A program made the translations under genes and the position numbers. A stretch of 64,000 nucleotides of DNA from Paludibacteraceae bacterium. Lineage in GTDB: Bacteria; Bacteroidota; Bacteroidia; Bacteroidales; Paludibacteraceae. Shown here piece after piece: positions 10,276 to 42,559 of this stretch. The first letter of the stretch is position 1. Every line of letters begins with the position of its first letter. The notes under the pieces were generated by a model that saw only the letters and a list, made by a program, of their open reading frames with translations, was not told the DNA's origin and ran no database searches. Where the stretch lies: positions 34,788-98,787 of the forward strand of contig JAFSWF010000071.1 in NCBI GenBank assembly GCA_017444615.1, given 5' to 3'.

Positions 10276-11441
10276 GATTTCTTTATTTTAAAACAGTAGA
10301 ACAATAAGTATGCAGCGCCGATAGCCATAACGAGGACTGCACCTGCTGAACCCATCACATCTGACATCAGACCCATTGCCAGCGGGAAAATCGTTCCGCC
10401 GAATAGACCCATGATCATCAGACCCGAGATCTCATTCTGGTGGTCGGGATCATAGAGCAATGCTTGCGAGAAGCAAATGGAGAAGATATTCGAGTTACCA
10501 AATCCTACCAATGCGATGCCGATGTACAGTGCCCAAGCCGCCGTACCGAACCACAAGCAAATCATCGAAGCTACAATCATACATACAGAGATGACAGCGA
10601 ACGAGCGTGCCGAGAGGTAACGCAGAATAAAACTACCGCTGAAGCATCCGATTGTACGGAAGATAAAATAGAGCGAGGTCGCAAAAGCCGCTTCGTCAAG
10701 GCTGAGCGAGAGACGCTCCATGAGAATCTTCGGAGCGGTAGTGTTCGTTCCTACATCGATGCCTACGTGGCACATGATGCCCAGGAAGCACAAGAGAATA
10801 TAAGGTTTGCCAAGCAGCGCGAAAGCCTCTTTGAACGATGCCGCTTTATCAGCCGGAGCTTCGTCAATGTGCGTAAAACCGAGGGCGAGGATTGCCAATA
10901 TACCTATGAGCGCATAGATAGGGAACAGCACTTTCCAGCCTAATCCAAAGGACGGTAACACTTGCGTTGCACCCCACATAGCGATGTAAGGAGCCGAGAA
11001 AGAAGCGATCGCTTTGACAAATTGACCAAAAGTGAGGGTCGATGCCAGTTTATCGCCCGTTACGATGTTCGACACCAACGGGTTGAGAGATGTTTGCATC
11101 AATGCATTACCGATGCCCAGCAGCGAAAATGCGATAAGCATCAGTGCATAGCTCTCGCCAAAAAGCGGCAGAACAAGCGACAGCACGGTAACAATGATAG
11201 AAAGCAACACGGTTTTCTTACGGCCAATCTTATTCATCAACATTCCCGTCGGAACGGAGAACAAGAGGAACCAGAAGAAGACGAGCGAAGGCATGATATT
11301 CGCCTGCGCATGAGTGAGACCGAGATCTTTCTGCACGTAGTTGGAAGCGATGCCGACGAGGTCCACAAAGCCCATGGTGAAGAAAGCAAGGAGTACAGGA
11401 AGCAAGACCAGCTTGCTCATTTGCGATTTGTCAGTAGTCAT
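10272..11441 (-). CDS. MFS sugar transporter (FucP/fructose importer type)
   Basis: 389 aa with about 12 transmembrane segments. The loop between helices 2 and 3 has the MFS signature GMLMNKIGRKKTVL. The FucP-like features are the opening VLLAFFTMGFVDLVGIA and the block SFSAPYIAMWGA. It probably carries fructose across the inner membrane for the overlapping fructokinase. It occupies the BT1758-like position in the locus. Substrate is inferred from neighbours; glucose or galactose cannot be excluded from sequence alone. Confidence 0.87.
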   Translation of the reverse strand: MTTDKSQMSKLVLLPVLLAFFTMGFVDLVGIASNYVQKDLGLTHAQANIMPSLVFFWFLLFSVPTGMLMNKIGRKKTVLLSIIVTVLSLVLPLFGESYALMLIAFSLLGIGNALMQTSLNPLVSNIVTGDKLASTLTFGQFVKAIASFSAPYIAMWGATQVLPSFGLGWKVLFPIYALIGILAILALGFTHIDEAPADKAASFKEAFALLGKPYILLCFLGIMCHVGIDVGTNTTAPKILMERLSLSLDEAAFATSLYFIFRTIGCFSGSFILRYLSARSFAVISVCMIVASMICLWFGTAAWALYIGIALVGFGNSNIFSICFSQALLYDPDHQNEISGLMIMGLFGGTIFPLAMGLMSDVMGSAGAVLVMAIGAAYLLFYCFKIKKS

Positions 11442-28800: not shown

Positions 28801-28961
28801 TCGGTTCCCACCTCTAAGACAGAAGCGCCAATAATCGGTTCTCCGGTCTCAGCCTCTACTACAAAACCAGTTGCTGTTGTTTGAGCGAGAATTGACATTC
28901 CTCCTACTAACAACAGCATCACGGTGGTTAAAAAAAGTCGTTTTTGTGTCTTCATCTGCAT
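25899..28961 (-). CDS. susC: SusC-family TonB-dependent outer-membrane transporter (PUL-A)
   Basis: 1020 aa. Signal peptide, then a CarboxypepD_reg-like plug extension (TGFVVEAETGEPIIGASVLE, about 30-110), the TonB-box region EEVIVTGYTTQRKADLTGSV, the plug domain with RIRGMGTMNSCEPLYIIDGVP, and the beta-barrel ending in an aromatic residue (NFSF). It imports fructo-oligosaccharides with SusD. An in-frame ATG at 28955 (MKTQKRLF) is an equally likely start. It heads the PUL-A operon and its promoter carries four TGCAACA-type half-sites. Confidence 0.96.
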   Translation of the reverse strand: MQMKTQKRLFLTTVMLLLVGGMSILAQTTATGFVVEAETGEPIIGASVLEVGTENGTITDYDGKFTLPVAAGATLSVSYVGYKTQTLAAGTNLQIRLAEDAEVLEEVIVTGYTTQRKADLTGSVAVMDMNTAISESNANMVSSLQGRLAGVQIISDAAPGSSGSSIRIRGMGTMNSCEPLYIIDGVPTSENLNSLNPADIESIQVLKDAASASIYGSRASNGVVIITTKNAKGEKLNVNIGYSATAQTVARTFQMLNADQWGQAYWAAYKNAGIIPSHLFYTEVSGQPVLIQYLDDKNKVPSSNTNWQDEVYRTAWTHNVNANVALNTQKGGFYFSGNYMNQQGLIKESYYERFTARINSDFKLGKWVKGGENLMVAKWKGNGYGTNSDGGIPFLAMRQHPAIPVRDLDGKFTSPLTLVNSDLANPVQIIENGKNNSSDSWRIFGNAFLEVNPWVKGLYIKTNIGIEHIQYLNDNLNRRVNPSDIASVGRDYGTGDTWTWTNTIAYSNVFKEKHHVNALLGTEAISYKYQSIGASRQSYIFETEHFMTIDAGDATTATNGGGKQTWALFSVFAKADYNYADRYLISATLRRDATSRLAKENNAGIFPAVSAAWRFTAEPFFPQQQWFTDAKIRVSWGQNGNAAISNNYASYSTYVYAGNAYYDLNGTNETPIAGIALASTGNKDLRWETTTQTNVGLDLGFFNNSLTVNFDWYLKETKDMITVPPVLSTAGEGASYVANTGDMRNMGVELNVDYHSPNYNGFTWSGNLNLGHYKNTVVKLNDFTQSMGGDVRLMVGQPMGVYYGYVADGLFRTMEEVANHADQQGKGLGRIRYRDIDGNGYIDEKDQCIIGDPNPNVSLGLNLDFKYKGFSLSMFFYSEMGFDVINSTKRQLHFMSYGDRSSNRSVDILNAWSMANTDATIPAISATDVNNEMRMSTYYVEDGSYVKMKYLKLAYDLPNKAVKAIHAQSVNVHFQIENLFTITRYTGLDPELPLGTWGARIDNGPYPRSRNFTMGVNFSF

Positions 28962-28983: not shown

Positions 28984-29078
28984 CAAAAGTACTACAATCT
29001 ATGCGTACGTGCAAATAAATATGTTGCAAAAAATGCCTTGTTTGTTACACTGCAACAAATCTTACATATTTTGCAACA
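28984..29078 (-). promoter_or_regulatory. susC (PUL-A) promoter with two pairs of TTGCAACA half-sites
   Basis: Minus-strand -7 element TACTTTTG (28984-28991) and -33 TTTG (29012-29015) are 20 bp apart. The half-site TTGCAACA (29022-29029) ends exactly 30 bp upstream of the -7, with a variant GTGTAACA (29043-29050) 21 bp further up. A distal pair in the opposite orientation, TGCAACA on the plus strand, is at 29051-29057 and 29072-29078, again 21 bp apart. Direct repeats two helical turns apart are the usual binding geometry of AraC-type domains. The regulator gene 29104-30582 ends just upstream. Confidence 0.75.
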
Positions 29079-29103
29079 TTTAGCATATTCTATTTGGTGG
29101 ATT

Positions 29104-30582
29104 TTATTTTCGGGTACTAGGAAGATGGCCAAAGAGCTCTTTGTAGCATTTGGTGAAATAACTGGGATTGGAGAAGCCCAGTTCCAATGCCACTTGTTGC
29201 ACCGTCATGTCTGTAGTTTGGAGCAATTCATCGGCTTTCATCAGGCGAAGTTCGCGAATGTATTCCAAGGGGCCCTTGCCGGTGATTGCTTTCACGCGTC
29301 GGAAGATTTGCGTGCGGCTTAAGTGTAGCATGTTGCTCAAAAACTCTACATTCAGGTTCGGGTCGGTTAGATGTTCTTCTACCACTTGTTTTAATCGTTC
29401 GGCAAAAGCCTCGTCGCGTTTGCTGAGTTGAATTGTTTGTTGCACATCTTTTAATTGCGGTAGAATCTCTTTCCGTATCTCTCGTTGTATTTTGGTTTGC
29501 TTGATAAAAAGGGTCCATAACGCGTAGCAAAACAATAACAGAACGATTGCAAGGACAACCACTAAGGTGATGCGACTAACATTCATGCTTTGCCAGCGTC
29601 TGTCTGCACGCATCTGTATAATCCGGATGGTTTCTATTTGGTGGCGTTCTTCAGCCTCTTTGATGAGCATCGCTTTAGCTGCAATGTTATCTATGAGGGT
29701 TGTTTCTAAAACGGTTTCTCGTTTGAAAGGCGTGTTTGTCAGTATTTGGAAAGCCGTTTCGATGATGATGTCTCCTCGTGAAGGGTATGTGGCGGTGCAC
29801 TCCAGTTGTCCTTTTGCCACAGCCTCTATACCTATTTGTATTCCATCAACGCCCATGATGGGCACGCTGCCTGCGCCATACCCTTTGCTGTCGCGAACTG
29901 CCTCTGCGGCGCCTATGGCCATTAGGTCGTTTTGCGCAACGATGGCGTCTATATTCTTATGCTTGCGCAGGTATTCCAGTACTGCGTCATAGGCGTTTTC
30001 TCGATACCATTCTCCTTGTAGAGGTGTAATAGATGGTTGTACTCCCCCCATAGAGGCCAAGCCTTCCATCAAGCCCTGATGGCGAAGCATCGCCGGTGTG
30101 GAGCCAGGCAGTCCGCACACCTCTACCACATGGATGGGGCGATGTTTGGCGGATTGAAGTTTATGTACCCACTCCGCCATCAGTAGTCCAACGCGGTAGT
30201 TATCTCCCCCGATGAACGTTGTCCACTCATTTCCGCTCACGCGGCGGTCAGCCACGATGACCGGAATGCCGGCTTTGAATGCACGTGAGACCGCGGGTTT
30301 CACCTCTTCCGCTTCGTTGGGACTGACGATGAGCAGGTTCACACGCTCAGCGATAAACGAATCGATCTGGGCGCACTGCAATTCATTACTGCCGTAGGCG
30401 ATGCGTTTGGTGAGGGTCATTTCCGGATAGAGCAGCAATTCGCGCTCCATCTCTTCGTTCATCTTCTGCCGCCACGCGTCATCTAAGCACTGACTGACGC
30501 CAATACGGTACTGCGGTTGAGGGTTGTTACAAGATCCTAAAAAACAAGCACAAACAAGGAATATAGCAACTATGTTTCTCAT
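29104..30582 (-). CDS. One-component membrane regulator: periplasmic sugar-binding domain, one helix, AraC DNA-binding domain
   Basis: The ATG at 30582 (MRNIVAIFLVCACFLGSC) is preferred; the longer TTG frame from 30606 overlaps the -7 element. 492 aa. A signal peptide with a lipobox-like Cys is followed by a periplasmic binding protein domain (about 25-290), with VADRRVSGNEWTTFIGGDN and VAQNDLMAIGAAEAV. A single transmembrane helix (about 338-360, ITLVVVLAIVLLLFCYALW) precedes a charged linker and an AraC-type HTH domain (about 405-492, EFLSNMLHLSRTQIFRRVK and ALELGFSNPSYFTKCYKELFG). No histidine kinase or receiver is present. The sensor is a clear paralogue of the hybrid regulator at 39843. 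By analogy with BT1754 it may sense fructose directly. It lies immediately upstream of the PUL-A susC. Confidence 0.9.
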   Translation of the reverse strand: MRNIVAIFLVCACFLGSCNNPQPQYRIGVSQCLDDAWRQKMNEEMERELLLYPEMTLTKRIAYGSNELQCAQIDSFIAERVNLLIVSPNEAEEVKPAVSRAFKAGIPVIVADRRVSGNEWTTFIGGDNYRVGLLMAEWVHKLQSAKHRPIHVVEVCGLPGSTPAMLRHQGLMEGLASMGGVQPSITPLQGEWYRENAYDAVLEYLRKHKNIDAIVAQNDLMAIGAAEAVRDSKGYGAGSVPIMGVDGIQIGIEAVAKGQLECTATYPSRGDIIIETAFQILTNTPFKRETVLETTLIDNIAAKAMLIKEAEERHQIETIRIIQMRADRRWQSMNVSRITLVVVLAIVLLLFCYALWTLFIKQTKIQREIRKEILPQLKDVQQTIQLSKRDEAFAERLKQVVEEHLTDPNLNVEFLSNMLHLSRTQIFRRVKAITGKGPLEYIRELRLMKADELLQTTDMTVQQVALELGFSNPSYFTKCYKELFGHLPSTRK

Positions 30583-30603
30583 GATGCAACATTTTTCACG
30601 CTG

Positions 30604-30635
30604 CAAAGTTACGAAAAAAAACGCACATATGCAAA
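30604..30635 (-). promoter_or_regulatory. Promoter of the one-component regulator
   Basis: Minus-strand TTTG (30632-30635), 20 bp, TAACTTTG (30604-30611). The leader to the ATG is only about 20 bases and contains TGTTGCA (plus strand 30585-30591, read as TGCAACA), which could allow autoregulation; that last point is speculative. Confidence 0.75.
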
Positions 30636-30660
30636 TTTTTGTGCGCTTTTTTCTGAATTT

Positions 30661-30804
30661 ACTAGTTTTCTAGATTTCTAGAATTCTAGAAGATAGCCCT
30701 TCCTATGAGAGCAAAATGTTCAATTTCGTACTTAAATTAGGTACGGCTTGCCTTCGACTTGCCTTCGAGATGCTCTCGACTTGCCCTCGTCTACGAAAAA
30801 TGTT
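30661..30804 (-). repeat. Dispersed intergenic repeat, copy 2 (inverted relative to copy 1)
   Basis: The reverse complement of this segment aligns block by block with 9161..9299: AACATTTT, 11-bp units around AAGTCGAAGGC, GCCGTACCTAATTTA, AAATTGAACATTT, CTAGA-rich sequence and AGAAAACTAG. It touches the stop codon of the 31670 gene and lies between PUL-B and PUL-A. The two copies therefore bracket PUL-A. Confidence 0.8.
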
Positions 30805-31670
30805 TAATTTTTCTCTAAGATTTGTGTGCCGAGGAGGTTGAAGGTCTTGTTGTCACGGATGATAACCACCTGACCATTCACTATCGCTTTCACGGCTTTT
30901 GCTTCTATACCTACGTTCTCTACAGCGGTCTCGTTCTTTGGAACGAGCACGATGTCGGTGAGGTTGAATGCAGAACCGTCTTCCGGATTGCCTTGCACCA
31001 ATAAGCGGTCAGAAGTGGTAGCTTCATCGGCATAAATATTCGCCACATCCACGGCTGTGAGATCAATTTCAAAGCGATCCGTATATTTAGTAGCTGTTTG
31101 GGAAATGATAGCATCATCGTTGTCAAATTTAGACAACACTTTCATAAAATAGGTATCAAATCCGGCTTCGTGGTACACAACCATTTTGTCGTACAGGCTC
31201 CAGTCAATCGACCAGCCAGCGAGGAATAACTCCATTGTATTCCAGTCCTCAATCCAGAAATAGCCTTTCCAAATGGTCAATCCACCCTCTTTGAAGGCAT
31301 CACCTTCTTCTATCGCTACATTCGTGATGGTGAAGTTGGCGCCAATGATTTCGAGACCAAAAGCCTTTAAGTCTGCGACTGCAGCCTCTGTAAGTGCCAG
31401 ATTATAATTACCATCTCCACTAATCCATTGTTGATTATGTGTTCCCGGCAAGTAGTGAAAATCATTTAGCACTTTGAACTCTATACCATCCGAAGCGCCT
31501 GTGAAGGAAACAACGAGTTTTTGGCCTGCCACAGCGTCAGCGAACTGAGCAGCCTCGATTTGGATACCGCCGTCTTCCCACGAAATGTGTTTTTCACCTG
31601 TCCAGATGTCGGTTGCGTTGATAGTCATTGCTGCAAACAAAGCAGTTGCAAAGAGGAAAAGTTTTTTCAT
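30804..31670 (-). CDS. Secreted protein with two tandem beta-sandwich (CBM-like) domains
   Basis: I start at ATG 31670 (MKKLFLFATALFAAMTINA, a cleavable signal peptide); the frame is open from 31682. 288 aa. Two tandem related segments begin DIWTGEKHISWEDGG (about 20) and TIWKGYFWIEDW (about 125); each looks like a galactose-binding-type beta-sandwich. The tail GQVVIIRDNKTFNLLGTQIL nearly matches that of the 817-aa DUF4960 protein, so the two probably share a sorting or anchoring route. I do not recognise a named family. It has its own operator-bearing promoter, so it belongs to the fructan regulon, probably as a glycan-binding protein. Function is inference. Confidence 0.7.
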   Translation of the reverse strand: MKKLFLFATALFAAMTINATDIWTGEKHISWEDGGIQIEAAQFADAVAGQKLVVSFTGASDGIEFKVLNDFHYLPGTHNQQWISGDGNYNLALTEAAVADLKAFGLEIIGANFTITNVAIEEGDAFKEGGLTIWKGYFWIEDWNTMELFLAGWSIDWSLYDKMVVYHEAGFDTYFMKVLSKFDNDDAIISQTATKYTDRFEIDLTAVDVANIYADEATTSDRLLVQGNPEDGSAFNLTDIVLVPKNETAVENVGIEAKAVKAIVNGQVVIIRDNKTFNLLGTQILEKN

Positions 31671-31718
31671 AAAATCATGCATTTATAGTTAAACAAAAAA
31701 TGGTTTTCATTTTCGATG

Positions 31719-31785
31719 CAAAAGTACTGCTATTTGCGCATATACGCTATAACATATGTTGCAAACAGTAGTACTTTTGTATCAA
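31719..31785 (-). promoter_or_regulatory. Promoter of the 31670 gene with TTGCAACA operator
   Basis: Minus-strand -7 TACTTTTG (31719-31726). TTGCAACA (31757-31764) lies 30 bp upstream and the variant TTGATACA (31778-31785) a further 21 bp upstream. There is no TTTG at the -33 position, which suggests activator dependence. The region also forms an imperfect inverted repeat of about 24 bp around its centre, so a plus-strand TACTTTTG is present as well; no gene follows it in that direction. Confidence 0.7.
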
Positions 31786-31789
31786 GGGC

Positions 31790-33451
31790 CTAATAATGGG
31801 TTCTTTTCAGGTTCGAAATGGTGATGTTGCCGTTATAGGAATTGATGCTCCAGCAGTTATGTTGATTGCCGTAGATGCGATTCGTGTAACATACATTATC
31901 GTTAATATAAACGACGCAAACCGAATTGTCGGTATAGATGTCGATGTGGTACGTATTATCGGCAGGGGAGTTGAATACATAGCCATCAATGGCTTCGATG
32001 AAACCTTTTCCTTCCGGTCCCTCTTCCTCGAAATTCACCTTACGCGTAGTGGCACTTTCTGGGTTGACAATGATAGTGTAGTATTTGACGCTATCAGTAC
32101 TTTGACTATTGGTTCCGCGGCAGAAAGAGAAGCCAAACTTATCGGTTGCCTCATCGGTCGTGATGGTCATAGAGAGATGGTTGTGGTAATCAAGGCGATT
32201 GAAGAGGGCGTAACTATTCGGCTCCAGTTTATACCCACCTCCATTATCCGGTGTAACACCGGTTTCGCTCTGCGCCATCAGTTTGATTTCTTTCGTTTGC
32301 GCGTATTTATCTTTGATGCCCGGCACTTCGCCGAGGGTGAGTGTGCCGTCTTCGTGCTGGATGAGGCGATGGGCAACGAGCGAACCGGCCCATTGTGGTT
32401 CTGAACCGGAGTTCGTTTTGGCGTTATTGTTTCCTTCGCGTGTCGGGCACCAACCCCATATATAGCGGTTCGTGCCGTCCGAAGCGGTCTTGCCTGCATA
32501 GAAACCGCGGCTATCGAGGAATCCTTCGTGGTTGTCTGGCCAGATACCGGCATCGCCTGCGGTGCAAGCCTTCAGTTCGGCAAGTGTGTGCCCCTTGAAA
32601 TATTGTACGCGGCGGACAGCACTGTGCATTTCGCTATAGATAAGATACCAGTACTCGCCCATTTTGAACACATCGGGACACTCGTAGAAACGATCCCACA
32701 TCATGGGCATGAAGATACCTACGTGTGACCAGTTATTGAGGTCGGTGGAGGAGAACTCAGCCAAGTTGCCTTTGCCGCCCACTTTGGTAGTTACGATCAT
32801 ATGCCAAAGCTTATCTTCGTCGTTGAAGAAAACGAACGGGTCACGGAAATCGGTAGAACTATAGGCATACTCGACGCCACGAAGGCGGAAGAGCGGGTCT
32901 TTGGTCCATGTTTTGAAGTCCGGCGAGGTTGCCTTCATGATAATCTGCGCATCTTCGCCTACTTTGGGTAGATGGCGGTTGGCCGTGTAGAAGATGTAAT
33001 AGAGTTGGTCAGTTTCGTTATAGACCACGCAACCCGTTCCGAGGGCGGCATCTGCTTCGGCTATACTACCGGTGGGTAACACTTCGTTGAGGGAGGCGTA
33101 GTGCGCTACGTCTTTGGTCTGCACGCCCCAGAAAGGATGGTACGTGCCCGGCATGTTCGGACGGAACTCCTGCAGGTAGAGAACCTTGAAATCCTGTGCA
33201 ACGGGGTCGAAGAACGGCATCGGGTCGCCTACAAAACCCGCAGAAGGTTTGTAGTAGGTGGTCGATTGCTTCTCGTCCGTGGAGGCATAGTAGTTGGTGG
33301 TACCGTCCCAGTCTTTTTGTTCTACAGGTATGTTCTCCGAGCAAGCAGAGAACATGACCGTTAGCACTGCAAGACCGGCAACAAGTCGCCTGTAAGACCA
33401 CTTCGCTATAAGACCGCAACTAACGTTGCTGTAAGATTTTATCGTTTTCAT
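31790..33451 (-). CDS. GH32-family lipoprotein with VGDPMP-type active site
   Basis: 553 aa. Lipobox FSACS after a hydrophobic segment (about 23-37). The usual WMNDPNG is replaced by FVGDPMPFFDP, with the Asp of GD as candidate nucleophile; DFRDPF and the acid/base Glu in FYECPD are present. GH32 enzymes with GDxMPFY motifs form a recognised branch, in my recollection. The C-terminal beta-sandwich includes YHIDIYTDNSVCVVYIND. It follows the PUL-B surface lipoprotein gene by 2 bp. It probably attacks a different fructan linkage or end from the PUL-A enzymes; that is inference. Confidence 0.88.
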   Translation of the reverse strand: MKTIKSYSNVSCGLIAKWSYRRLVAGLAVLTVMFSACSENIPVEQKDWDGTTNYYASTDEKQSTTYYKPSAGFVGDPMPFFDPVAQDFKVLYLQEFRPNMPGTYHPFWGVQTKDVAHYASLNEVLPTGSIAEADAALGTGCVVYNETDQLYYIFYTANRHLPKVGEDAQIIMKATSPDFKTWTKDPLFRLRGVEYAYSSTDFRDPFVFFNDEDKLWHMIVTTKVGGKGNLAEFSSTDLNNWSHVGIFMPMMWDRFYECPDVFKMGEYWYLIYSEMHSAVRRVQYFKGHTLAELKACTAGDAGIWPDNHEGFLDSRGFYAGKTASDGTNRYIWGWCPTREGNNNAKTNSGSEPQWAGSLVAHRLIQHEDGTLTLGEVPGIKDKYAQTKEIKLMAQSETGVTPDNGGGYKLEPNSYALFNRLDYHNHLSMTITTDEATDKFGFSFCRGTNSQSTDSVKYYTIIVNPESATTRKVNFEEEGPEGKGFIEAIDGYVFNSPADNTYHIDIYTDNSVCVVYINDNVCYTNRIYGNQHNCWSINSYNGNITISNLKRTHY

Positions 33452-33453
33452 AA

Positions 33454-34824
33454 TTATTCTCCTTTCAAATAATTAATGGCATTTTCTGTGATTTTGGCAA
33501 TATTAGCATGGTAATATTCCGTACCGGCATCGCCTGCCACGGAGTACCAGTCGTAGCAACCCGAACCGATGCAGACGATTGCACCATGGTCGGCTGTACG
33601 CGCGTATTCCCATGCTACAACGGCGTCATTACCTCCAGCTATGTCTATTGCACCGGTCTTGGTGCGGAACATATCGCGGTCATCATAGCCTCCCCAATCA
33701 GCACCGATGTGGTACTGAGCCGTAGAGTTGGTAATACGATAACCGGCATCACAAGTGAACACATTCTCCGGAGCATTGGATTTCATGATGAGGTTCTGCC
33801 AGAGGGCGTGGTTGGTATGACCGGCGATGGAGAAATCCCATGGCCCGCTGACGGTCTCGGCTTTGTCTTCATCCTGTCCCCAACAGTTATTGGGCACACA
33901 ATCGGCTTCACCAAGATATTTGGGCAAGTAGGTAGCATAACGAGTGAGGAAGAACGAACCGCCTGCTTGATAATATGCTTTCAGTGCATCGGCTGCGGCA
34001 ATGGCTTCCACTGCATTGTTCTTGAACTGCCCATCGCCATCAATGCCACCATCTTTGTGAAGATGCCACCAGATCACTTTACATTCGCTCAGGTCAACGG
34101 CACCTGCTTTCAGGTCAGCAAAGGAAACGTAAGCGGATTTATTGACATTGCTCAATAGCCATGTCACAGCCGTTTGTTCTTCGATAGGCAGTTGTTGTTG
34201 TGTAGCGGCGAGGCCTACATAGAGCACATGCGGCGCACTCATCTCGGACACTGTAACGGTGTAGGTGAGCGATGCTGTACCATACGTTACCGTGTAGGCC
34301 ACAGGCTGGCTGAAATCTTGTGCCACACCACTTGCGGGAGTCAACGTGGCTCCTTCGGTCGTGGTGATAGTCGGCGTCAAGGACTGAAGGTTGGTGCCTG
34401 CCGGTACTTGAACAGAGATCGTATGTGCTATTTGGTTGATGACGCCTATGTATTGGCCGTTAATCGTAAAACTGATAATGCGCGCTTCATCATGTTTGAC
34501 GGATAAGGCATAATCGAGGAACACATCGCCGTTCGTAACTCGAAGAAGCTGTGGTGCGATTAGGTTGAGTCGGTCTCCTACCTGACGATTAGCGCTTGCT
34601 CCCTCCGAAAGGCTCAACGCGGTAATCTCCATCTCGCGCTCATCGTACACTTCCGGAATGGCTACTACTATCGTGCGGGCTTTTCTATCCACTACACCAT
34701 TGTACACACTATCTAATTGAATGGACAGCACATCGCAGTCTCCGCTAATATTGAAATCTGAATTGCGCTTCTCGCAAGAGACGAAAACCAGTATTACTGA
34801 TAATATATATAGTAACTTTTTCAT
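33454..34824 (-). CDS. Surface fructan-binding lipoprotein (two Ig-like modules + DUF4960)
   Basis: Start taken at ATG 34824 (MKKLLYILSVILVFVSC lipobox); the frame extends to 34836. 456 aa. Two Ig-like/DUF5018-like modules (about 25-105 and 106-190) come first; the second includes ISFTINGQYIGVINQIAHTI. A DUF4960-type domain (about 195-456) follows with YYQAGGSFFLTRYATYLPKYLG. It holds the position after susD that BT1761 holds in the model fructan locus. Inferred role: surface capture of fructan for the PUL-B SusCD pair. Confidence 0.82.
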   Translation of the reverse strand: MKKLLYILSVILVFVSCEKRNSDFNISGDCDVLSIQLDSVYNGVVDRKARTIVVAIPEVYDEREMEITALSLSEGASANRQVGDRLNLIAPQLLRVTNGDVFLDYALSVKHDEARIISFTINGQYIGVINQIAHTISVQVPAGTNLQSLTPTITTTEGATLTPASGVAQDFSQPVAYTVTYGTASLTYTVTVSEMSAPHVLYVGLAATQQQLPIEEQTAVTWLLSNVNKSAYVSFADLKAGAVDLSECKVIWWHLHKDGGIDGDGQFKNNAVEAIAAADALKAYYQAGGSFFLTRYATYLPKYLGEADCVPNNCWGQDEDKAETVSGPWDFSIAGHTNHALWQNLIMKSNAPENVFTCDAGYRITNSTAQYHIGADWGGYDDRDMFRTKTGAIDIAGGNDAVVAWEYARTADHGAIVCIGSGCYDWYSVAGDAGTEYYHANIAKITENAINYLKGE

Positions 34825-34849
34825 AATCATTCGCAATTTTAACGTATCA

Positions 34850-36571
34850 TTACCAATTACCTATGTTTTGTGTATAATGCCCATTAGATGCCGCAATCTG
34901 GCTGAACGGGATAGGCAAATATTCGTTCTTGTTCGCCGTGAAATGAGCATCGGAATAGATGGCGCAATTATCGGCCTCTTCTGCATAGTATTTATTGATG
35001 ACTGTTTCTGCTTCTCCCCATCTAACGAGGTCAAAGAATCGCTCTGACTCCAAAGCCAATTCCAGACGCCGCTCCATCTTTACGCGAGCCAGCGTCTCTT
35101 CCTTACCATAGGTAGTAGGATAAGGCATAACGCGGATATGAGCACCGTAATTGACATCGTAGCCGTTCAGCATGCCTGTTTGTGCGGCGCGGACACGGAG
35201 TTGGTTAACCAAGCCTATCGCCTCAGCGAGGTCGGTTCCTAACTGCGCTAACGCCTCCGCACGCATGAGCATCACATCCGAATAACGCAGCACAATACGA
35301 TTCATCGGACTGCCCCACCAAGCACCTTTAATGAGGTACTCACTATCGGGGTCCACATTATGCTTGAGGGTTACATTATAGCCATACAATCCATTCGAAC
35401 GGCTCCATGTTTTGGTCTTTGCCATCATATAGTTCGTGTTGAACATGTAAGGGAATCCAGGAATACCAACCGTGAGCCATAGACGCGGATCAGCGTTGTC
35501 GGAGGAGGCATTGAAATCTTTGTTATTATAGGTGTCAATGAGCGGCAGACCGGCATCATCGGTATGGAAGGCATTGACGAGGTTTTGACTGGGCTTGTAG
35601 AAATCGCAGCCACCATCCGTTACACCAGGGATGTTCGGTACAATCAGACCGTACGACCAGTTGAGGTTACCGTTTTTTGTACCATCGTTCATCGAATATT
35701 GCATTGCCCAAAGGCTTTCTATGCCATTCTCATATTGCGGTTCGGGACGGAAATTATTATGGAAATCCGGTTCCAGACCATAACCGCCGTAGAGTGCAGG
35801 GTCGGTGTATTCCACTACTTTTTGCAGATCCTCTGCGTTGATTTCCGTTACGCTGTGCGTATTGGGGTCATCTTGACGATAAGCCTTGTAAAGATAAGTC
35901 TTTGCCAAGAGCGCCGCAGCAGACGCTTTGGTGGGACGACCCTTATCGGCTTGACTAACCGGTAACACGCGGAAAGCATAATCCAAATCGTTGATAATCA
36001 CCTGCCATCCTTGGTCGTTTGTATATTCGGTGTTGCTTAATGCGAGGTAATCCTCTTGCGTCATATTACCTTTGATAACGAACGGGATATTCTTATACAA
36101 TCGTTTGAGCAGAAAATGACCATAAGCGCGCAGGAAATACATTTCACCCAGGCGTTGCTCTTTCAGCTCGTAGGAATTGTCCATCTTATTGAGCGCATCA
36201 ATCGCCATATTGACACGGCTGAGACAATTATAGAGCCGCACCCACATATCGTTGATATTCCAGTTCGTGGTCAAAATACCCTGTGATATCTCCAATTGGT
36301 GGAACACATCGCCATCCGAAGTGCCGTTACCACCTTTGTATGCATCATCGGAGCGCACATCGAAGTTCCACATCGAGAAAGAAGAGTTGATATCCTCCGC
36401 GGAGATGAAGATAGCGTATGCCGAGATAACTAAGTTATCTATATATTGCGGGTCGCTTACCTGCTCTTCGTCCAAGATTCCTTGCGGCACATCCTGATTG
36501 AGGAAGTTGTCGCAAGAAGCGAAGAGAACGGCGCAGAGGGTTAAGATAATATATAATTTATTCGTTTTCAT
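34850..36571 (-). CDS. susD: SusD-family glycan-binding lipoprotein (PUL-B)
   Basis: The ATG at 36571 (MKTNKLYIILTLCAVLFASC) gives a normal lipoprotein signal; the frame extends to 36598. 573 aa. SusD features: DNFLNQDVPQGILDEEQ, MYFLRAYGHFLLKRLYKNIPFV, RYSDVMLMRAEALAQLG and RRLELALESERFFDLVRWG. It lies 33 bp after the PUL-B susC. It is clearly diverged from the PUL-A SusD, so the two pairs are not recent duplicates. Confidence 0.95.
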   Translation of the reverse strand: MKTNKLYIILTLCAVLFASCDNFLNQDVPQGILDEEQVSDPQYIDNLVISAYAIFISAEDINSSFSMWNFDVRSDDAYKGGNGTSDGDVFHQLEISQGILTTNWNINDMWVRLYNCLSRVNMAIDALNKMDNSYELKEQRLGEMYFLRAYGHFLLKRLYKNIPFVIKGNMTQEDYLALSNTEYTNDQGWQVIINDLDYAFRVLPVSQADKGRPTKASAAALLAKTYLYKAYRQDDPNTHSVTEINAEDLQKVVEYTDPALYGGYGLEPDFHNNFRPEPQYENGIESLWAMQYSMNDGTKNGNLNWSYGLIVPNIPGVTDGGCDFYKPSQNLVNAFHTDDAGLPLIDTYNNKDFNASSDNADPRLWLTVGIPGFPYMFNTNYMMAKTKTWSRSNGLYGYNVTLKHNVDPDSEYLIKGAWWGSPMNRIVLRYSDVMLMRAEALAQLGTDLAEAIGLVNQLRVRAAQTGMLNGYDVNYGAHIRVMPYPTTYGKEETLARVKMERRLELALESERFFDLVRWGEAETVINKYYAEEADNCAIYSDAHFTANKNEYLPIPFSQIAASNGHYTQNIGNW

Positions 36572-36604
36572 AATCTTTAAACATTCACTAGTAAACATTA
36601 AACA

Positions 36605-39600
36605 TTAGAAAGTTACTTTAGTTCCTAAAGTTACGGTCAGCGGAATGGGATAGGAGAAATTAGGATTCTCCGGGTCTACACCGGTAAAACTCTTGGAATG
36701 AATAGTGAATACATTCTGCGCTGAAACGAACCAACGCCAGTTCTGCATTTTCATTTTATCGCACGCCGATTTAGGCAGGTTATAACCTAATTGAAGATTG
36801 CGCAGTTTAAGGAATGAACCGTCTTCTATCCAGTACGTAGAGACGCGTTTCTCATTGTTATTATCGCTGAGGCTGAGGGCGGGAATATTGCTATTGGGGT
36901 TGGTATAACTCCAGGCATTCAACAGACGTGTACCCTTGTTGAGAAAACCAATATTGAGTCCCGCCCAAATATCGGTCTCTTTCTTAAGGTCTGTGATCAC
37001 TTGTACCCCACCTACGCCTTGGAAGAAGACCGTCAAGTCAAACCCTTTATACTCAAAATAGAAGTTCGCACCGAACGAAACTGCCGGTACCGGCGAATAA
37101 ATCCAATCTTGGTCGGCTTCAGTGATCCTTCCGTCGCCATTGAGGTCGCGGTAACGAATGCGTCCAATGTCTGCACCCTCTTGGATGGCATGGTTATCTA
37201 CCTCTTCCTGGCTCTTGAAAATGCCATCCGCGATGTAACCTACTTGCGAACCGAGTGCGTGGCCTACTACTGACTTAACGCCATTACCGCCGAAAGTACC
37301 GCGGGCAGCAATAGTAGCCGGCAACTGGGTGATCGTATTATCATAGTGCGATATATTAGCAGTGATGTCGTATTTGAATCCACCTTTCGTTTGATTGCGA
37401 TAACCGAGTGCCAGTTCCACACCCATGTTATCCATCGCACCAGCATTCACCCATTGTACCGCACCTTCACCCATCGCACCGATGCCATCCATCAGCACCA
37501 GAATATCCTTCGTTTGCTTGTAGAACCAATCGAACGAACCGTAGAAAGTCTGCTTGAAGAACGAAAAATCCAAACCCGCATTGGTCTGCGTCGTTGTCTC
37601 CCATTTGATGTTATCGTTTCCTATCTGGTTGCGCTTGAATCCCGAGGGTAAGGTGCTACCTCCGTTGGTTCCGGCAATGTCGTACGAAGTGCCGTAACTC
37701 TGACCACCGCTCTCGTTCACACCGTAATTGGAAACATAGATGGTGTAACGCGCGGTGGACGAGATGTCTTGATTACCGGTCTGCCCCCACGAGGCACGAA
37801 TCTTCAAATCATCGAGCCACGAGTTAGCTCCTGCCATGAATTTCTCCTGACTAATACGCCAACCGGCGGAAACGGAGGGGAATGTAGCAAAGCGGTTATT
37901 CTTACCGAAGCGGCTTGAACCATCATGTCGCAGCGTTACCGAAACGAGATAACGGTTATCGTAACTATAGTTCGCTTTGCCGAAGAACGAAATGAGCGAA
38001 TAACTGCCGGAAGAGCCGTAGGCTTGCGCTTTACCTACACCCGCATCGGGCCACATATAATTGGGCGTTAACACCAGATAATCTTCTTTGTAGCCGGAGA
38101 AATATTCATCTATCTGACGGTTCAATTCTGTACCCAACAAGAAGTCTGCACGGTGCTTACCGATCTCAAGGTTATAGGTAATAATCGCATTCCACATCCA
38201 TTTCATCCAATGTTCCTGCTTGGCTTCTACGGCGTTGGTCGCGTTAGCCACCGTTCCTTCCGTCACGGGATAGGTGAAGATACGTTGTTTCTTTTGCGAA
38301 TAATCAATACCGGCGGTAGTGCGGATGTTCAGACCCTTGTAGGGATTGATGTTGATAAACGCATTTCCGAACACACGCCAGTAGGTATAGCGGTTATCCT
38401 TATTGCGCGTTAAACGAGCTAACGGGTTTTGACGGTCTGGATAACCTCCTACCGGTCCCGCAAACTCTCCGTCCGTTGTGTAAATAGGTAACGACGGGTT
38501 GAATTGCAACACATTCTGCAGGAAGCCTTCAGGGGCAGCCACTTCACTTGTGCGACTAAGGGTGAAGTTCTCACCAATGGTTACGTAATCGCCGATAATC
38601 TTATAATCCGTATTGATACGCGCGGAGAAACGGTCGAAATCAGAGAACTTGATAATACCGTCATTCTTGAAATAACCGAGCGAGAAGAACGAAGATCCTT
38701 TCTGACTTCCGTGTGACACGGAGACATTATAATTTTGTACTACGCCCGGGCGCGTGGTAGCGCCGAACCAATCGGTATCAGCAGCCGGTACCGTTCCGGC
38801 TTCATCCAGATACTTATTCATCATGAGATGGTTCAGTACCGGATAACCGGCAGCGTTATAGCCCCAATTATAGTGGTAGCCTAACGCATTCGTGTTGGGA
38901 TCCATGCCATCGTTCACATAGGCTTGCCACATCACCTGACCGAACTGCTCTGCATTGAGCACCGATAATTTATTCGTGTACGATTGTACCGCCACGGAGG
39001 CATCAAGGCTGACATTGAGTTTGCCTTCTGCACCTTTCTTGGTGGTAACGATAATCACACCGTTGGCAGCGCGTGAACCGTAGATAGAAGCCGATGCGGC
39101 ATCTTTGAGCACCTGAATAGACTCTATGTCGTTAGGGTTTAATTCATGCATACCGGATTTGGTAGGTACACCATCGATGATGTAGAGTGGGTCGTTGTCA
39201 TTCAAGGTTCCTACACCGCGAATACGGATAGTAGCAGCACCGGATGGATTACCGTCTGCTGTCACATTCATACCGGGAATCTTACCCTGCAGCGCTTTCA
39301 TCGGGTTATTCTCCTGTTGCTTCTCCAAGTCCTTGGCACTCACCGCACTCACGGCACCCGTCAAATCAGCTTTGCGCTGGGTGGTATAACCCGTCACCAC
39401 CACTTCTTCCAGCACCTCCGTGTCTTCCGCCAAACGCACTTGCAGATTGACGCCAGCCGCTAAAGTCTGTGCTTGGTAACCCACATACGAGATGGTCAAC
39501 TGTGCTCCATCGGACACCGTGAGCGTAAAATGACCGTCAAAATCGGTGATAGTACCGTTTGAGGTGCCCACTTCCAATACACTGGCTCCGATAATAGCCT

Positions 39601-39712
39601 CACCTGTACCGTCCACTACTGTTCCGGTCGCAACCGTTTGCGCCATAGCAGCGGACGATGTCATAAGCAAGAGCATCATCATCCAGCTGGTTAGTTGTTT
39701 TTTCATACGCAT
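36605..39712 (-). CDS. susC: SusC-family TonB-dependent outer-membrane transporter (PUL-B)
   Basis: Start taken at ATG 39712 (MRMKKQLTSWMMM); the longer frame from 39754 begins at a TTG inside the -7 promoter element. About 1035 aa. CarboxypepD_reg-like extension (GTVVDGTGEAIIGASVLEVG), TonB region EEVVVTGYTTQRKADLTGAV, plug domain with RIRGVGTLNDNDPLYIIDGVP, and beta-barrel ending VTF. It imports fructo-oligosaccharides with its SusD. The N-terminal third is very similar to the PUL-A SusC while the barrel differs, which suggests different fructan preferences. Confidence 0.95.
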   Translation of the reverse strand: MRMKKQLTSWMMMLLLMTSSAAMAQTVATGTVVDGTGEAIIGASVLEVGTSNGTITDFDGHFTLTVSDGAQLTISYVGYQAQTLAAGVNLQVRLAEDTEVLEEVVVTGYTTQRKADLTGAVSAVSAKDLEKQQENNPMKALQGKIPGMNVTADGNPSGAATIRIRGVGTLNDNDPLYIIDGVPTKSGMHELNPNDIESIQVLKDAASASIYGSRAANGVIIVTTKKGAEGKLNVSLDASVAVQSYTNKLSVLNAEQFGQVMWQAYVNDGMDPNTNALGYHYNWGYNAAGYPVLNHLMMNKYLDEAGTVPAADTDWFGATTRPGVVQNYNVSVSHGSQKGSSFFSLGYFKNDGIIKFSDFDRFSARINTDYKIIGDYVTIGENFTLSRTSEVAAPEGFLQNVLQFNPSLPIYTTDGEFAGPVGGYPDRQNPLARLTRNKDNRYTYWRVFGNAFININPYKGLNIRTTAGIDYSQKKQRIFTYPVTEGTVANATNAVEAKQEHWMKWMWNAIITYNLEIGKHRADFLLGTELNRQIDEYFSGYKEDYLVLTPNYMWPDAGVGKAQAYGSSGSYSLISFFGKANYSYDNRYLVSVTLRHDGSSRFGKNNRFATFPSVSAGWRISQEKFMAGANSWLDDLKIRASWGQTGNQDISSTARYTIYVSNYGVNESGGQSYGTSYDIAGTNGGSTLPSGFKRNQIGNDNIKWETTTQTNAGLDFSFFKQTFYGSFDWFYKQTKDILVLMDGIGAMGEGAVQWVNAGAMDNMGVELALGYRNQTKGGFKYDITANISHYDNTITQLPATIAARGTFGGNGVKSVVGHALGSQVGYIADGIFKSQEEVDNHAIQEGADIGRIRYRDLNGDGRITEADQDWIYSPVPAVSFGANFYFEYKGFDLTVFFQGVGGVQVITDLKKETDIWAGLNIGFLNKGTRLLNAWSYTNPNSNIPALSLSDNNNEKRVSTYWIEDGSFLKLRNLQLGYNLPKSACDKMKMQNWRWFVSAQNVFTIHSKSFTGVDPENPNFSYPIPLTVTLGTKVTF

Positions 39713-39751
39713 TTGTTTTACGATTAAATGAATAATTTCCAATTCCGACGA

Positions 39752-39818
39752 CAAAATTACTGCTTTTCGCGCATATAGATTAAAAAAAATGTTGCAATCT
39801 TTTGTACTTTTGTTGCAA
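39752..39818 (-). promoter_or_regulatory. susC (PUL-B) promoter with paired TTGCAACA operator
   Basis: Minus-strand -7 TAATTTTG (39752-39759). Perfect TTGCAACA half-sites at 39790-39797 and 39811-39818 are 21 bp apart as direct repeats, and the proximal one ends 30 bp from the -7 element. There is no TTTG at -33. The spacer resembles that of the 31670 promoter (TATATGCGC followed by AGCAG). Geometry identical to the other two promoters supports binding by an AraC-type regulator encoded in the locus. Confidence 0.8.
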
Positions 39819-39842: not shown

Positions 39843-42506
39843 TTACATTTTACCCTTCACATCCGACGGTTTTTCACCGAAGTATTCCGTGTAGCATCGG
39901 GTGAAATAAGAGGGCGAAGTGAAGCCGGTTTTGTAGGCTATTTCGCTGACGGTCATCGTACCTTTAGTGAGCATCGCGCGCGCTTCGTGCATGCGCACGT
40001 TCCGTATAATCTCATTCGGTGAGTAATGGGTTAATTGCTTCATCTTGCGGTATAACTGTGTACGACTCATAGCCATCTTATCGGCAATCACCTCCACGCT
40101 CAGTCTCTCATCATCCAAGTTCTCACGCACAATATCGTTGAACCGTTGCACGAACTGCTCTTCTGGGGTTTGCAACTCAGTTTTCTGATGACTGACGGCA
40201 GACGACTGATTGCTCATTACTCGTTGACGGTTAGCCACGAGTGCCGCCACTTGCGCCTTCAGCACCTCTGTCTTAAACGGCTTCGACACGTACGCATCTG
40301 CACCGTGCGCGTAACCTTCCACCTGTTGCTCGTCCATCGAACGAGCGGTCAGCATCATAAACGGAATATGCGATGTCACAGGCTCTTTCTTCAACTGCTC
40401 GCATACCTTCAGACCATCGATATCCGGCATCGACAGGTCGCACAAGATAATATCCGGCACACTGATAAACGCCTTACGGATACCTGTATTACCATTTTCG
40501 GCAGTTATAACCGTGTACGTGTCGCTGAAGAGCTGCCGTAAGTACGCACGGATATCCGCATTATCATCCACCACTAACATGATCGACTTATCATCTTCGC
40601 CTTCTACCGGCGTCTCTTCTGTTGATTCGGTGCCTAATTCCGTCAAGATCTGCTCCGAGGAGATGTGCTGATAGCTGACTTTTGATGGCTGAAAGCTGAC
40701 GTCTGACAACTCTCCTATCGGTAAGCAAACGGTAAACACCGTTCCTTGCCCCTCAGGATTATCCGTTACGGAGATTGTACCGCTTTGCAGCGTCACGAAT
40801 GAGCGCACTAAGGCCAGACCGATGCCCGAACCCTGACTATTGGTCGCATCCAATTGGAAGAACGTGTCGAAAATGCGTTGCTTGTATTCCTCCGGCACAC
40901 CCGAACCCGTGTCCGCTATCGCAAAACACACCTGCTCGCCCTCGCGCCATAATTGTACACTCACATGACCGTTTGCAGGCGTAAACTTAAACGCGTTGGC
41001 CACTAAGTTGAAAACAATACGTTCCGTTTTTTCTACGTCTAAAACGGCCTCTATTGCTTCTTCCGGTGCTTCGTATGATAAATGCACATGCCGTCTCTTA
41101 GCCAGCGGTTGAAACGCCTCTACCCATTCCTTCAGTGCCCAACCAACCTCCACGCAAGTCATCTTAGGCTTCAACATGCCGCTTTCGTACTTGCGGAAAT
41201 CCAATACCTGATTGATTAGCCGCAGCAACACTTGTGCATTACGATGGGCAATAGCCACTAGCCGATGTTGCTCTTCGCCCAACGCCGTGTCTCGCTCCAA
41301 CTGACCCAAAGGGTCAGCTATTAGCGTCAACGGCGTGCGGAAATCGTGACTCACATTGGTAAAGAATGTCAACTTACTACGGGTGGCTTCTTCCAACCGA
41401 CTCTGTGCCTCCAGCAACTGCTCGTGCAAACGCTTGCGCTGACGGTATAAATGCCATACATAAACCAAGAAAAACAGCGTGACTACCGCCAGAATAATAA
41501 TCAACCATAAGATGGTTCGTTGTTGACGGTACTCTTTGCTCAGAATATCCGTTCGCTGCTTGAGCATAGAGATGGTGCCCACTTCGTGATCCATCTCCGA
41601 GGACAAATCCAGCATAGCCTCCGCGGCACCTCGATCTACGATAATGGACGGCAAAATCGAATCTTTCGTAAAGGGTTCTCCGTTCAGTATCTGAGCTACT
41701 GTCTCGATCAATAAATCGCCGCGTGAAGGATAAGTAGCAGTACATTCAATCACCCCTTCCATAATAGCTTGCAGCCCCTCACTCGCGCCATCTACGCCCA
41801 TGATACGAAGCGGGGGATAATCCAAATCGCGTGCGGCTCGTGAAGCATCAATAGCCATCCGGTCATTTTGCGCAACGATAGCATCTACATCCTTATGAAC
41901 CGATAAATATGCCAGCGCCGCCTTATACGCACTCACACTGCCGTTGACGGAATTCAGCGTTACCCCCTCACCATTTATCGCTAACCCCTCTATTAATCCT
42001 TGATGGCGAAGACGAGCAGGAGTAGAACCTTCCATACCACATATTTCTAACACCAGCAAACGATGATCCGTCTCTGACTGAACTTGCTTAAGCCAAGTGC
42101 TAAACTGCACTCCTACGCCGTAGTTATCGCCGCCTATAAAAGCCGTCCACTGATCTCCTGAAACCCTTCGGTCGGCTAACACAACCGGAATGCCGGATTC
42201 GTAAGCCCTCGTCACAGCCGATTGGACCCCTTCTTCTGCACTCGGGCTAACAATCAGAGCATCCACTCCTTCGGCGATAAAACTATCTATTTGCGCGCAT
42301 TGTAACGCATCATCGCCGTACGCCACACGCATACGCAACTCCATTTCCGGATGAAACAGCAACTGCCGCTCCATCTCCGCATTCATCTTTTGACGCCACG
42401 CATCATCGAAACACTGACTAAAGCCAATCGTGTACTGCGCTTCGTGCGTGGAACAAGACACTAAAAACAAACCTGTTATGCATGCAAGAAGAGTAGTGTT
42501 TCTCAT
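39843..42506 (-). CDS. Hybrid two-component regulator with periplasmic sugar-binding sensor (BT1754-type)
   Basis: Start at ATG 42506 (MRNTTLLACITGLFLVSC); the TTG frame from 42530 overlaps the -7 element. 887 aa. Periplasmic binding protein domain (about 20-285), transmembrane helix (about 335-357), HisKA with phospho-acceptor His in SHDFRTPLT, HATPase with NLVANAFKFTP and DTGSGVPEEYKQ, receiver with phospho-acceptor Asp in LCDLSMPD, and a C-terminal AraC HTH domain (KTGFTSPSYFTRCYTEYFG). All phosphorelay residues are present. In B. thetaiotaomicron the homologous BT1754 binds fructose and activates fructan genes. It sits directly upstream of the PUL-B susC. Two linkers, around FQPSKVSYQHIS and RVMSNQSSAVSHQ, are coded by 7-bp-period DNA. 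Confidence 0.95.
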   Translation of the reverse strand: MRNTTLLACITGLFLVSCSTHEAQYTIGFSQCFDDAWRQKMNAEMERQLLFHPEMELRMRVAYGDDALQCAQIDSFIAEGVDALIVSPSAEEGVQSAVTRAYESGIPVVLADRRVSGDQWTAFIGGDNYGVGVQFSTWLKQVQSETDHRLLVLEICGMEGSTPARLRHQGLIEGLAINGEGVTLNSVNGSVSAYKAALAYLSVHKDVDAIVAQNDRMAIDASRAARDLDYPPLRIMGVDGASEGLQAIMEGVIECTATYPSRGDLLIETVAQILNGEPFTKDSILPSIIVDRGAAEAMLDLSSEMDHEVGTISMLKQRTDILSKEYRQQRTILWLIIILAVVTLFFLVYVWHLYRQRKRLHEQLLEAQSRLEEATRSKLTFFTNVSHDFRTPLTLIADPLGQLERDTALGEEQHRLVAIAHRNAQVLLRLINQVLDFRKYESGMLKPKMTCVEVGWALKEWVEAFQPLAKRRHVHLSYEAPEEAIEAVLDVEKTERIVFNLVANAFKFTPANGHVSVQLWREGEQVCFAIADTGSGVPEEYKQRIFDTFFQLDATNSQGSGIGLALVRSFVTLQSGTISVTDNPEGQGTVFTVCLPIGELSDVSFQPSKVSYQHISSEQILTELGTESTEETPVEGEDDKSIMLVVDDNADIRAYLRQLFSDTYTVITAENGNTGIRKAFISVPDIILCDLSMPDIDGLKVCEQLKKEPVTSHIPFMMLTARSMDEQQVEGYAHGADAYVSKPFKTEVLKAQVAALVANRQRVMSNQSSAVSHQKTELQTPEEQFVQRFNDIVRENLDDERLSVEVIADKMAMSRTQLYRKMKQLTHYSPNEIIRNVRMHEARAMLTKGTMTVSEIAYKTGFTSPSYFTRCYTEYFGEKPSDVKGKM

Positions 42507-42527
42507 GACCTTTCCCTTTTTTCGCTG

Positions 42528-42559
42528 CAAAATTACTACAAAAAAATGGAATAAGCAAG
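42528..42559 (-). promoter_or_regulatory. Promoter of the hybrid regulator
   Basis: Minus-strand CTTG (42556-42559), 20 bp, TAATTTTG (42528-42535). No TTGCAACA pair is seen nearby, so the regulator itself is probably expressed constitutively at low level. Confidence 0.7.

Follow-up and report, generated by a model that had tools for sequence, protein, structure and literature searches.

At araI1-I2, AraC has direct half-sites two helical turns apart, the proximal one adjoining the -35 region. Among the glycan regulators of gut bacteria, hybrid two-component systems (HTCSs) form a major class, and the contribution of their kinase is unclear. Direct repeats of 21 bp are described as the layout of 16 HTCS motifs in Bacteroides (PMC3878776), and the HTCS receiver is described as inhibiting the DNA-binding domain until it is phosphorylated (PMC11253607). 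The intact HTCS BT1754 is reported to enrich the 3′ region of its own gene in chromatin immunoprecipitation, i.e., to bind DNA while tethered to the membrane (PMC3404733). Here, we analyzed a 64,000-nucleotide stretch of a Paludibacteraceae genome (assembly GCA_017444615.1, contig JAFSWF010000071.1; "the window") with a fructan locus that encodes two AraC-type regulators, a BT1754-like HTCS and a related protein without a kinase, and three promoters that share the half-site TTGCAACA. From sequence layout, conservation, gene association and domain make-up, we infer binding and activation at these sites, and we consider it likely that both membrane-anchored, fructose-sensing regulators of the locus have their operators in these three elements.

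The three promoters belong to the susC genes of two polysaccharide utilization loci (PUL-A and PUL-B) and to the 31670 gene. The first-pass annotation of this DNA had placed a half-site 30 bp from the -7 element at each of them and another one 21 bp further upstream, and all coordinates held when they were checked to the base. On the minus strand of each promoter, the proximal half-site (P) ends 30 bp before TAnnTTTG, and the distal half-site (D) begins 21 bp upstream of P (Table 1). Of the three, only PUL-A susC has a -33 TTTG, which lies 20 bp from its -7 element; the other two promoters lack it, as had been noted. The arrangement agrees with the published 21-bp HTCS layout, which fits the earlier proposal of a fructan-promoter operator whose two-turn direct repeats are predicted to bind AraC-type domains. 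An opposing pair of half-sites at PUL-A susC (29071-29078 and 29050-29057, 21 bp apart) had also been seen correctly; it is not an extra, however, but the second arm of a dyad that is widespread in relatives. With outer (O) and inner (I) inverted half-sites, the latter back to back with D, the full operator reads TGTTGCAA-N13-TGTTGCA·GTGTAACA-N13-TTGCAACA (O-21-I·D-21-P). The PUL-B susC and 31670 promoters have the right arm only and no -33 TTTG, like other HTCS-linked promoters of the genus. The promoters thus divide into two classes that go with different regulators: PUL-A susC, which has the dyad and the -33 element, adjoins the kinase-less protein, and PUL-B susC adjoins the HTCS. The 31670 promoter resembles the PUL-B susC class. 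Because the -7 element of PUL-B susC overlaps the mechanical TTG start of the open reading frame (ORF) at 39754, the real start of that gene lies downstream, at about 39706-39712.

The expectation that the arrangement is restricted to these promoters was borne out by genome-wide scans of the window's own assembly (1,595,505 bases, 76% complete). TTGCAACA-N30-TAnnTTTG occurs exactly at 3 places, all at these promoters, at 0 places with one mismatch and at 19 with two; the 22 places with up to two mismatches compare with 12 for the reversed control. The pair TTGCAACA-N13-TTGCAACA, with up to two mismatches, was found at 7 places, 5 of which are readings of the three promoters. The remaining two (C3:11197 and C45:5169) have no TAnnTTTG exactly 30 bp downstream. 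At C3 there is one with two mismatches; this place (G000:C3:11159-11225), where TTGCAAAA-N13-TTACAACA lies upstream of a gene with an imperfect -7 element at the right distance, is a weak candidate for a fourth site. What is special is the full arrangement: the lone 8-mer shows no enrichment in the window when one mismatch is tolerated (72 found versus 74 expected), and the repeat pair at 3 mismatches is ordinary genome-wide (34 places versus 26 for the reversed control).

Conservation was followed in related loci (80 of 182 were kept, the best ones mostly rumen or gut metagenome-assembled genomes [MAGs] titled Paludibacteraceae or Bacteroidales) and in a survey of 178 genomes of the genus. 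When upstream regions of four gene classes were picked regardless of the -7 element, 47 of 78 (the window's three included) showed the repeat pair with at most 3 mismatches. All 47, among them many from near-identical relatives, have TAnnTTTG at exactly 30 bp; the frequency of a first TAnnTTTG at exactly that distance from a random position is 0.0005. With at most 2 mismatches, the pair was found at spacing 21 in 27/35 and 8/9 regions of two susC classes and in 11/20 of a GH32 class. The next spacing in the first susC class was 26 (13 regions), which reflects the inverted arm or chance. Control upstream regions had the 21-bp pair in 0/22 (GH32 levanase), 0/27 (susD) and 1/50 cases (the regulator gene itself). 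The aligned consensus of the relatives is O TGTTGCAA, 21 bp, I TGTTGCA, then D xTGAAACA, 21 bp, P TTGCAACA, 30 bp, TAnnTTTG. Among 70 kinase-less-type promoters in protein-fetched loci, selected via D, P and the -7 element at 30 bp with no use of I and O, I matched in 61, O in 62 and both in 58. The -33 TTTG lies exactly 20 bp from the -7 element in 66/70 of these versus 0/12 HTCS-type promoters (11 defined by the neighboring regulator, plus the 31670 promoter, assigned by appearance).

The dyad also accompanies the regulator gene. We scored 86 regulators, all from protein-based fetches and binned by identity to P0001, for a dyad (at most 6 mismatches over 31 scored bases) within 260 bp 3′ of the stop codon. 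It was found after 56/64 regulators with at least 55% identity, 6/10 with 48 to 55% and 2/12 more distant ones. TAnnTTTG stands at +30 in 60 of the 62 dyads beside the 74 regulators that are at least 48% identical, and the best of 1720 shuffles still had 10 mismatches to the dyad. In the genus survey, the dyad core pattern was present in 65/178 genomes, and its reversed control was absent from all 178. The pattern tracks the sensor, occurring in 63/85 genomes with it and 2/93 without it (Fisher p 3e-26); in G216, one of the latter two genomes, the dyad lies upstream of a susC gene at a contig end, where a regulator would be cut off. Among 138 strand-counted dyads, 64 had TAnnTTTG at exactly 30 bp on the first side, and 67 had none within 90 bp on the other side; the left arm therefore does not serve a divergent promoter. 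The two dyad-bearing regulators of the most distant bin, the kinase-less proteins L075 from a horse-feces Bacteroidales MAG and L078 from a record of Fibrobacter sp. UBA1765 (about 30% identity), have a dyad of the same geometry before the start of a predicted sugar transporter, with no exact TAnnTTTG at 30 bp. L075 pairs with an HTCS-length protein in the sensor tree, so that a second kinase loss is possible; for the Fibrobacter record, mis-binning is a possible alternative. At L153 1362 and L063 4625, an operator-like site with a -7 element lies upstream of the kinase-less regulator gene itself, which suggests possible autoregulation in a few genomes.

The kinase-less regulator comprises 500 amino acids (aa) and ends in an AraC HTH_18 domain. 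A Pfam scan showed no HisKA, HATPase or receiver domain in it, and since HisKA and HATPase are missing, it was not filed as an HTCS. Cys18 stands in a lipobox-like context and is invariant in 29/29 aligned homologues. In the AlphaFold2 model (29 sequences; predicted local distance difference test score [pLDDT] of 89, predicted template modeling score [pTM] of 0.62), one helix (299-403) joins the sensor and the DNA-binding domain; the pLDDT falls to about 55 at 371-390, and the continuity of the helix is uncertain there. The best PDB match of the sensor is the fructose-binding domain of BT1754 (2x7x; sequence match, E 7e-55; structural match, 34-35% identity), and the protein is predicted to be a fructose sensor of the Peripla_BP_4 type. 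According to the predicted topology, a single chain thus holds the sensor, one membrane helix and the DNA-binding domain. Between the two window regulators, the sensor and membrane helix are 49% identical and the AraC domains 40%. Throughout the genus, 85/178 genomes match the sensor, and only four (G000, G255, G346 and G347) have an HTCS-length copy; in the 49 genomes reached via kinase-less loci, no such copy was found, the longest open frame being 661 aa. Two one-mismatch half-sites (TTGCATCA on the minus strand and ATGCAACA on the plus strand, at 30582-30591) overlie the likely start codon of the kinase-less regulator, possibly by chance.

As a comparison set, we used 25 genomes reached via HTCS loci of other Bacteroidota. 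In 14 of them, 18 promoters match D, P and the -7 element (reversed control, 0), and 15 of the 18 also carry I and O, 13 with a centre 1 bp shorter than in the window and 2 with an equal centre. Shuffling gave a mean of 0.15 and a maximum of 2 in 500 rounds. Some of the promoters are near-copies, e.g., those of L279 and L283. Of the ORFs downstream, 10 match a protein that the window's fructan locus encodes (susC or GH32), and 8 are without a match to that set. Each of the 14 genomes has one ORF matching the fructose sensor (921-984 aa); no kinase-less form was found in them, as every listed match covering the P0001 sensor lies in an ORF of that length. The -33 TTTG was seen at 1/18 promoters, and that one is not a dyad. 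The four-part operator is therefore common to fructose regulators that have a kinase and those that lack one. We had considered the dyad as a mark of kinase loss and rejected this, because the apparent contrast (both inverted half-sites at 58/70 kinase-less-type versus 0/12 HTCS-type promoters) measured one register only, and a free centre finds the dyad in HTCS-only genomes. Within the genus, 7 HTCS-linked promoters (PUL-B susC and 31670 of the window, L207, two in L209 and two in L210) lack O, and one of them has I. Genome G255, which has both regulators, repeats the picture of the window: the promoter beside its kinase-less gene (L208) is a dyad with a -33 TTTG or TTTG-like core, and the one beside its HTCS (L207) is a bare direct repeat with no -33 element.

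The HTCS of the window has a mixed ancestry. In a sensor tree of 115 rows, the window and G255 HTCSs branch within the kinase-less clade, in which 49 of 51 rows lack a kinase (support 100/100), and holding the genus HTCSs together was rejected (approximately unbiased test, p 0.0003; all HTCSs, p 0.0001), the groups having been named after the tree was seen. In a tree of the DNA-binding domain (118 rows, few columns), the same two HTCSs group with those of G346 and G347 (100/97); 61/62 kinase-less domains form one group there (90/93, below the star threshold), with L075 unplaced. The best genus matches of the kinase-receiver-AraC part are the HTCSs of G255, G347 and G346 (77, 60 and 55%). Judged by these trees, the window HTCS is a natural chimera of a kinase-less-lineage sensor and an HTCS output, and recombination between paralogues that exchanged the sensor would be the simplest reading. 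A laboratory chimera with the BT1754 sensor on another HTCS is reported to have worked (PMC3404733), so a natural swap is plausible. As far as the promoter sequences indicate, the class of operator follows the DNA-binding domain and not the sensor.

In the mechanism that we favor, one AraC domain would bind the half-site xTGCAACA, and two half-sites 21 bp apart on one face of the DNA would take both domains of a dimer. The proximal one would lie close to the -33 position on its upstream side, a place from which an activator could touch RNA polymerase. The PUL-A susC dyad would most likely be served by the kinase-less regulator encoded immediately upstream, whereas the HTCS, once phosphorylated and thereby activated, would most likely act at PUL-B susC and the 31670 gene; since the half-site and the recognition helices are nearly the same, cross-binding is likely. 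As the kinase-less protein has no receiver, the part that holds the DNA-binding domain back in HTCSs, it would probably bind its two-sided operator with no phosphorelay. Fructose probably acts via the periplasmic sensor dimer and the helix that joins the sensor to the DNA-binding domains, and the left arm may add activation or holding. The idea that D and I overlap and are mutually exclusive was weakened by a possible second weak box per arm (T...A about 12 bp beyond the 8-mer, by eye), and all four half-sites could therefore be occupied.

Several observations weigh against this assignment. The 12 HTCS-type promoters become 11 without the 31670 promoter, whose nearest regulator by distance is the kinase-less one. 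An adjacent dyad is missing at 12/74 regulators (some beside other genes) and at 10/12 more distant kinase-less ones, and early-branching kinase-less loci (L195, L197 and L196) show by eye another layout, with direct half-sites 28 bp apart and an inverted one between them. The relatives are kin and some dyads are near-copies: the 64 dyads reduce to 53 different sequences, which form 20 clusters (separated by more than 8 differences over 57 positions). Finally, the dyad occurs irrespective of kinase loss, and its layout is therefore no guide by itself to the regulator that uses it. The HTCS might act alone at all three promoters, with the kinase-less protein as a nonregulatory or decoy paralogue. 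The half-site common to all three promoters and the four-part layout in HTCS-only genomes would allow it to serve PUL-A susC too; we nevertheless regard this as improbable, given the scarcity of HTCS-length copies among the sensor genomes (none in those reached via kinase-less loci), where the dyad is still kept beside the kinase-less gene.

Even less probable, in our view, is that a different, global regulator has its site in the back-to-back core, leaving only D and P to the fructose regulators. The core TGTT...AACA resembles the Crp-like palindrome TATGTTnTAnAACATA given in PMC3878776, but the gap between TGTT and AACA is 6 or 7 bp here versus 4 in that consensus, and such a site would leave O unexplained, which matches P and lies exactly 21 bp from I. 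We give somewhat more room, while still thinking it unlikely, to a left arm for repression or holding, in which an unliganded kinase-less dimer would grip O and I (or bridge the arms) until fructose shifts it to D and P in an AraC-like switch. With no receiver to gate binding, the consensus -33/-7 core of kinase-less-type promoters would need restraint, and the left arm does not appear to serve a divergent promoter; the idea is, however, pure inference, and the arms also occur with HTCSs, which phosphorylation gates. Returning to direct activation by the two regulators, we offer a wider account as possible rather than probable. The fructose receptor would have lost its kinase and receiver and would now link sugar to DNA directly, as a membrane-anchored periplasmic binding protein (PBP)-helix-AraC chain that switches on a two-sided, four-half-site operator by geometry and not by phosphate. 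In an uncultured rumen genus, it would largely have replaced the HTCS; in cells that keep both, the HTCS would have taken the kinase-less sensor and its promoters would have lost the left arm, leaving two wiring schemes for one sugar in one cell.

On the minus strand, the locus runs from the HTCS through PUL-B susC, susD, a DUF4960 protein, the GH32 levanase, the 31670 gene and the kinase-less regulator to PUL-A susC, and then through susD, DUF4960, GH32, DUF4960, GH32, further genes and GH32 to a major facilitator superfamily (MFS) transporter and a PfkB-type kinase. Gene class o11462 was tried as a permease and rejected, as Pfam shows GH32. At 12957-15410, the fructan operon encodes an 817-aa protein with no Pfam or NCBIfam match. 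The 31670 protein has no match in either database. Its gene had been called an orphan tied to the fructan regulon; the regulon assignment stands, but the gene is the counterpart of one that comes after the levanase in most relatives whose locus reaches far enough. Among 14 upstream regions of this type, 13 are without the pair, and the window alone has it. The best structural match of the 31670 model (pLDDT 72, pTM 0.52) is a surface glycan-binding protein of Bacteroides ovatus (about 115 residues, E 3e-5), the others being low-score beta proteins; the product is a candidate secreted carbohydrate-binding protein.

Table 1. Positions of genes and promoter elements in the window.
Feature	Position	Strand	Basis or remark
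PUL-A susC operator, proximal direct half-site P, TTGCAACA	29022-29029	-	kept in relatives
PUL-A susC operator, distal direct half-site D, GTGTAACA, 21 bp from P	29043-29050	-	
PUL-A susC operator, inner inverted half-site I (TGCAACA on +), back to back with D	29051-29057	+	7/7 vs kinase-less-clade consensus
PUL-A susC operator, outer inverted half-site O (TTGCAACA on +), 21 bp from I	29071-29078	+	8/8 match
PUL-A susC -33 element TTTG, 20 bp from -7 element	29012-29015	-	
PUL-A susC -7 element, TACTTTTG	28984-28991	-	
31670 gene operator, half-site P, TTGCAACA	31757-31764	-	
31670 gene operator, half-site D, TTGATACA	31778-31785	-	
31670 gene -7 element, TACTTTTG, without -33 TTTG	31719-31726	-	
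PUL-B susC operator, half-site P, TTGCAACA	39790-39797	-	
PUL-B susC operator, half-site D, TTGCAACA	39811-39818	-	
PUL-B susC -7 element, TAATTTTG, without -33 TTTG	39752-39759	-	
Predicted kinase-less fructose regulator: lipoprotein-like signal, Peripla_BP_4 sensor, one membrane helix, AraC helix-turn-helix (HTH); likely ATG start 30582	29104-30606	-	Pfam, homologues, model, PDB 2x7x
BT1754-like HTCS: sensor, HisKA, HATPase, receiver and AraC HTH in one chain; likely ATG start 42506	39843-42530	-	Pfam
PUL-A susC	25899-28961	-	Pfam
PUL-B susC (listed ORF bounds)	36605-39754	-	Pfam
GH32 levanase, BT1760-like	31790-33451	-	Pfam PF16346 and PF00251
31670 gene: predicted secreted all-beta protein	30804-31682	-	
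MFS transporter	10272-11441		
Fructokinase-like kinase (PfkB-type; fructokinase among best NCBIfam matches, below cut-off)	9373-10275		

The closest described system, compared by its text description, is the HTCS_Fru (BT1754) motif of Ravcheev et al. 2013 (PMC3878776), which shares the direct repeat of about 21 bp at fructan/fructose genes, an AraC-type HTCS and a COG1879-type fructose sensor. The window has such a repeat upstream of fructan/fructose genes beside a BT1754-like HTCS, which PUL-B susC directly follows. The HTCS_Fru text gives a two-site direct repeat only, whereas here a second, inverted pair extends it to a four-half-site dyad in many relatives, and one of the two regulators is without a kinase. 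SusR-like regulators, as described in PMC3878776, likewise join a membrane sensor and a cytoplasmic DNA-binding part in a single polypeptide in Bacteroidetes, but the SusR DNA-binding domain is not of the AraC type, and SusR sites are given as 67 or 77 bp apart; with its HTH_18 domain, the kinase-less regulator does not belong to that family. The operator is of a known kind, the 21-bp HTCS direct repeat. In the open-access literature consulted, as far as its text was available, we found no kinase-less BT1754-like regulator or four-part HTCS operator, and the novelty in print of the dyad and of the kinase-less regulator is not established. The four-part operator corrects the two-site picture for fructose regulators, and the locus offers a natural matched comparison, in which regulators of one sensor family, some with a kinase and some lacking it, occur with almost identical half-sites, both within a single genome and throughout the genus. 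Should phosphorylation be dispensable, simple single-chain sugar sensors for Bacteroidota would be possible. The kinase-less regulator resembles the membrane-integrated one-component regulators CadC and ToxR in having a periplasmic sensor, one membrane helix, a cytoplasmic DNA-binding domain and no kinase. CadC has the opposite N-to-C order and a ToxR-type winged helix, not a PBP plus AraC. The operator, in turn, resembles araI1-I2 in its two-turn direct half-sites, and differs from it in having a membrane-anchored regulator, Bacteroidota promoter elements and an inverted second arm.

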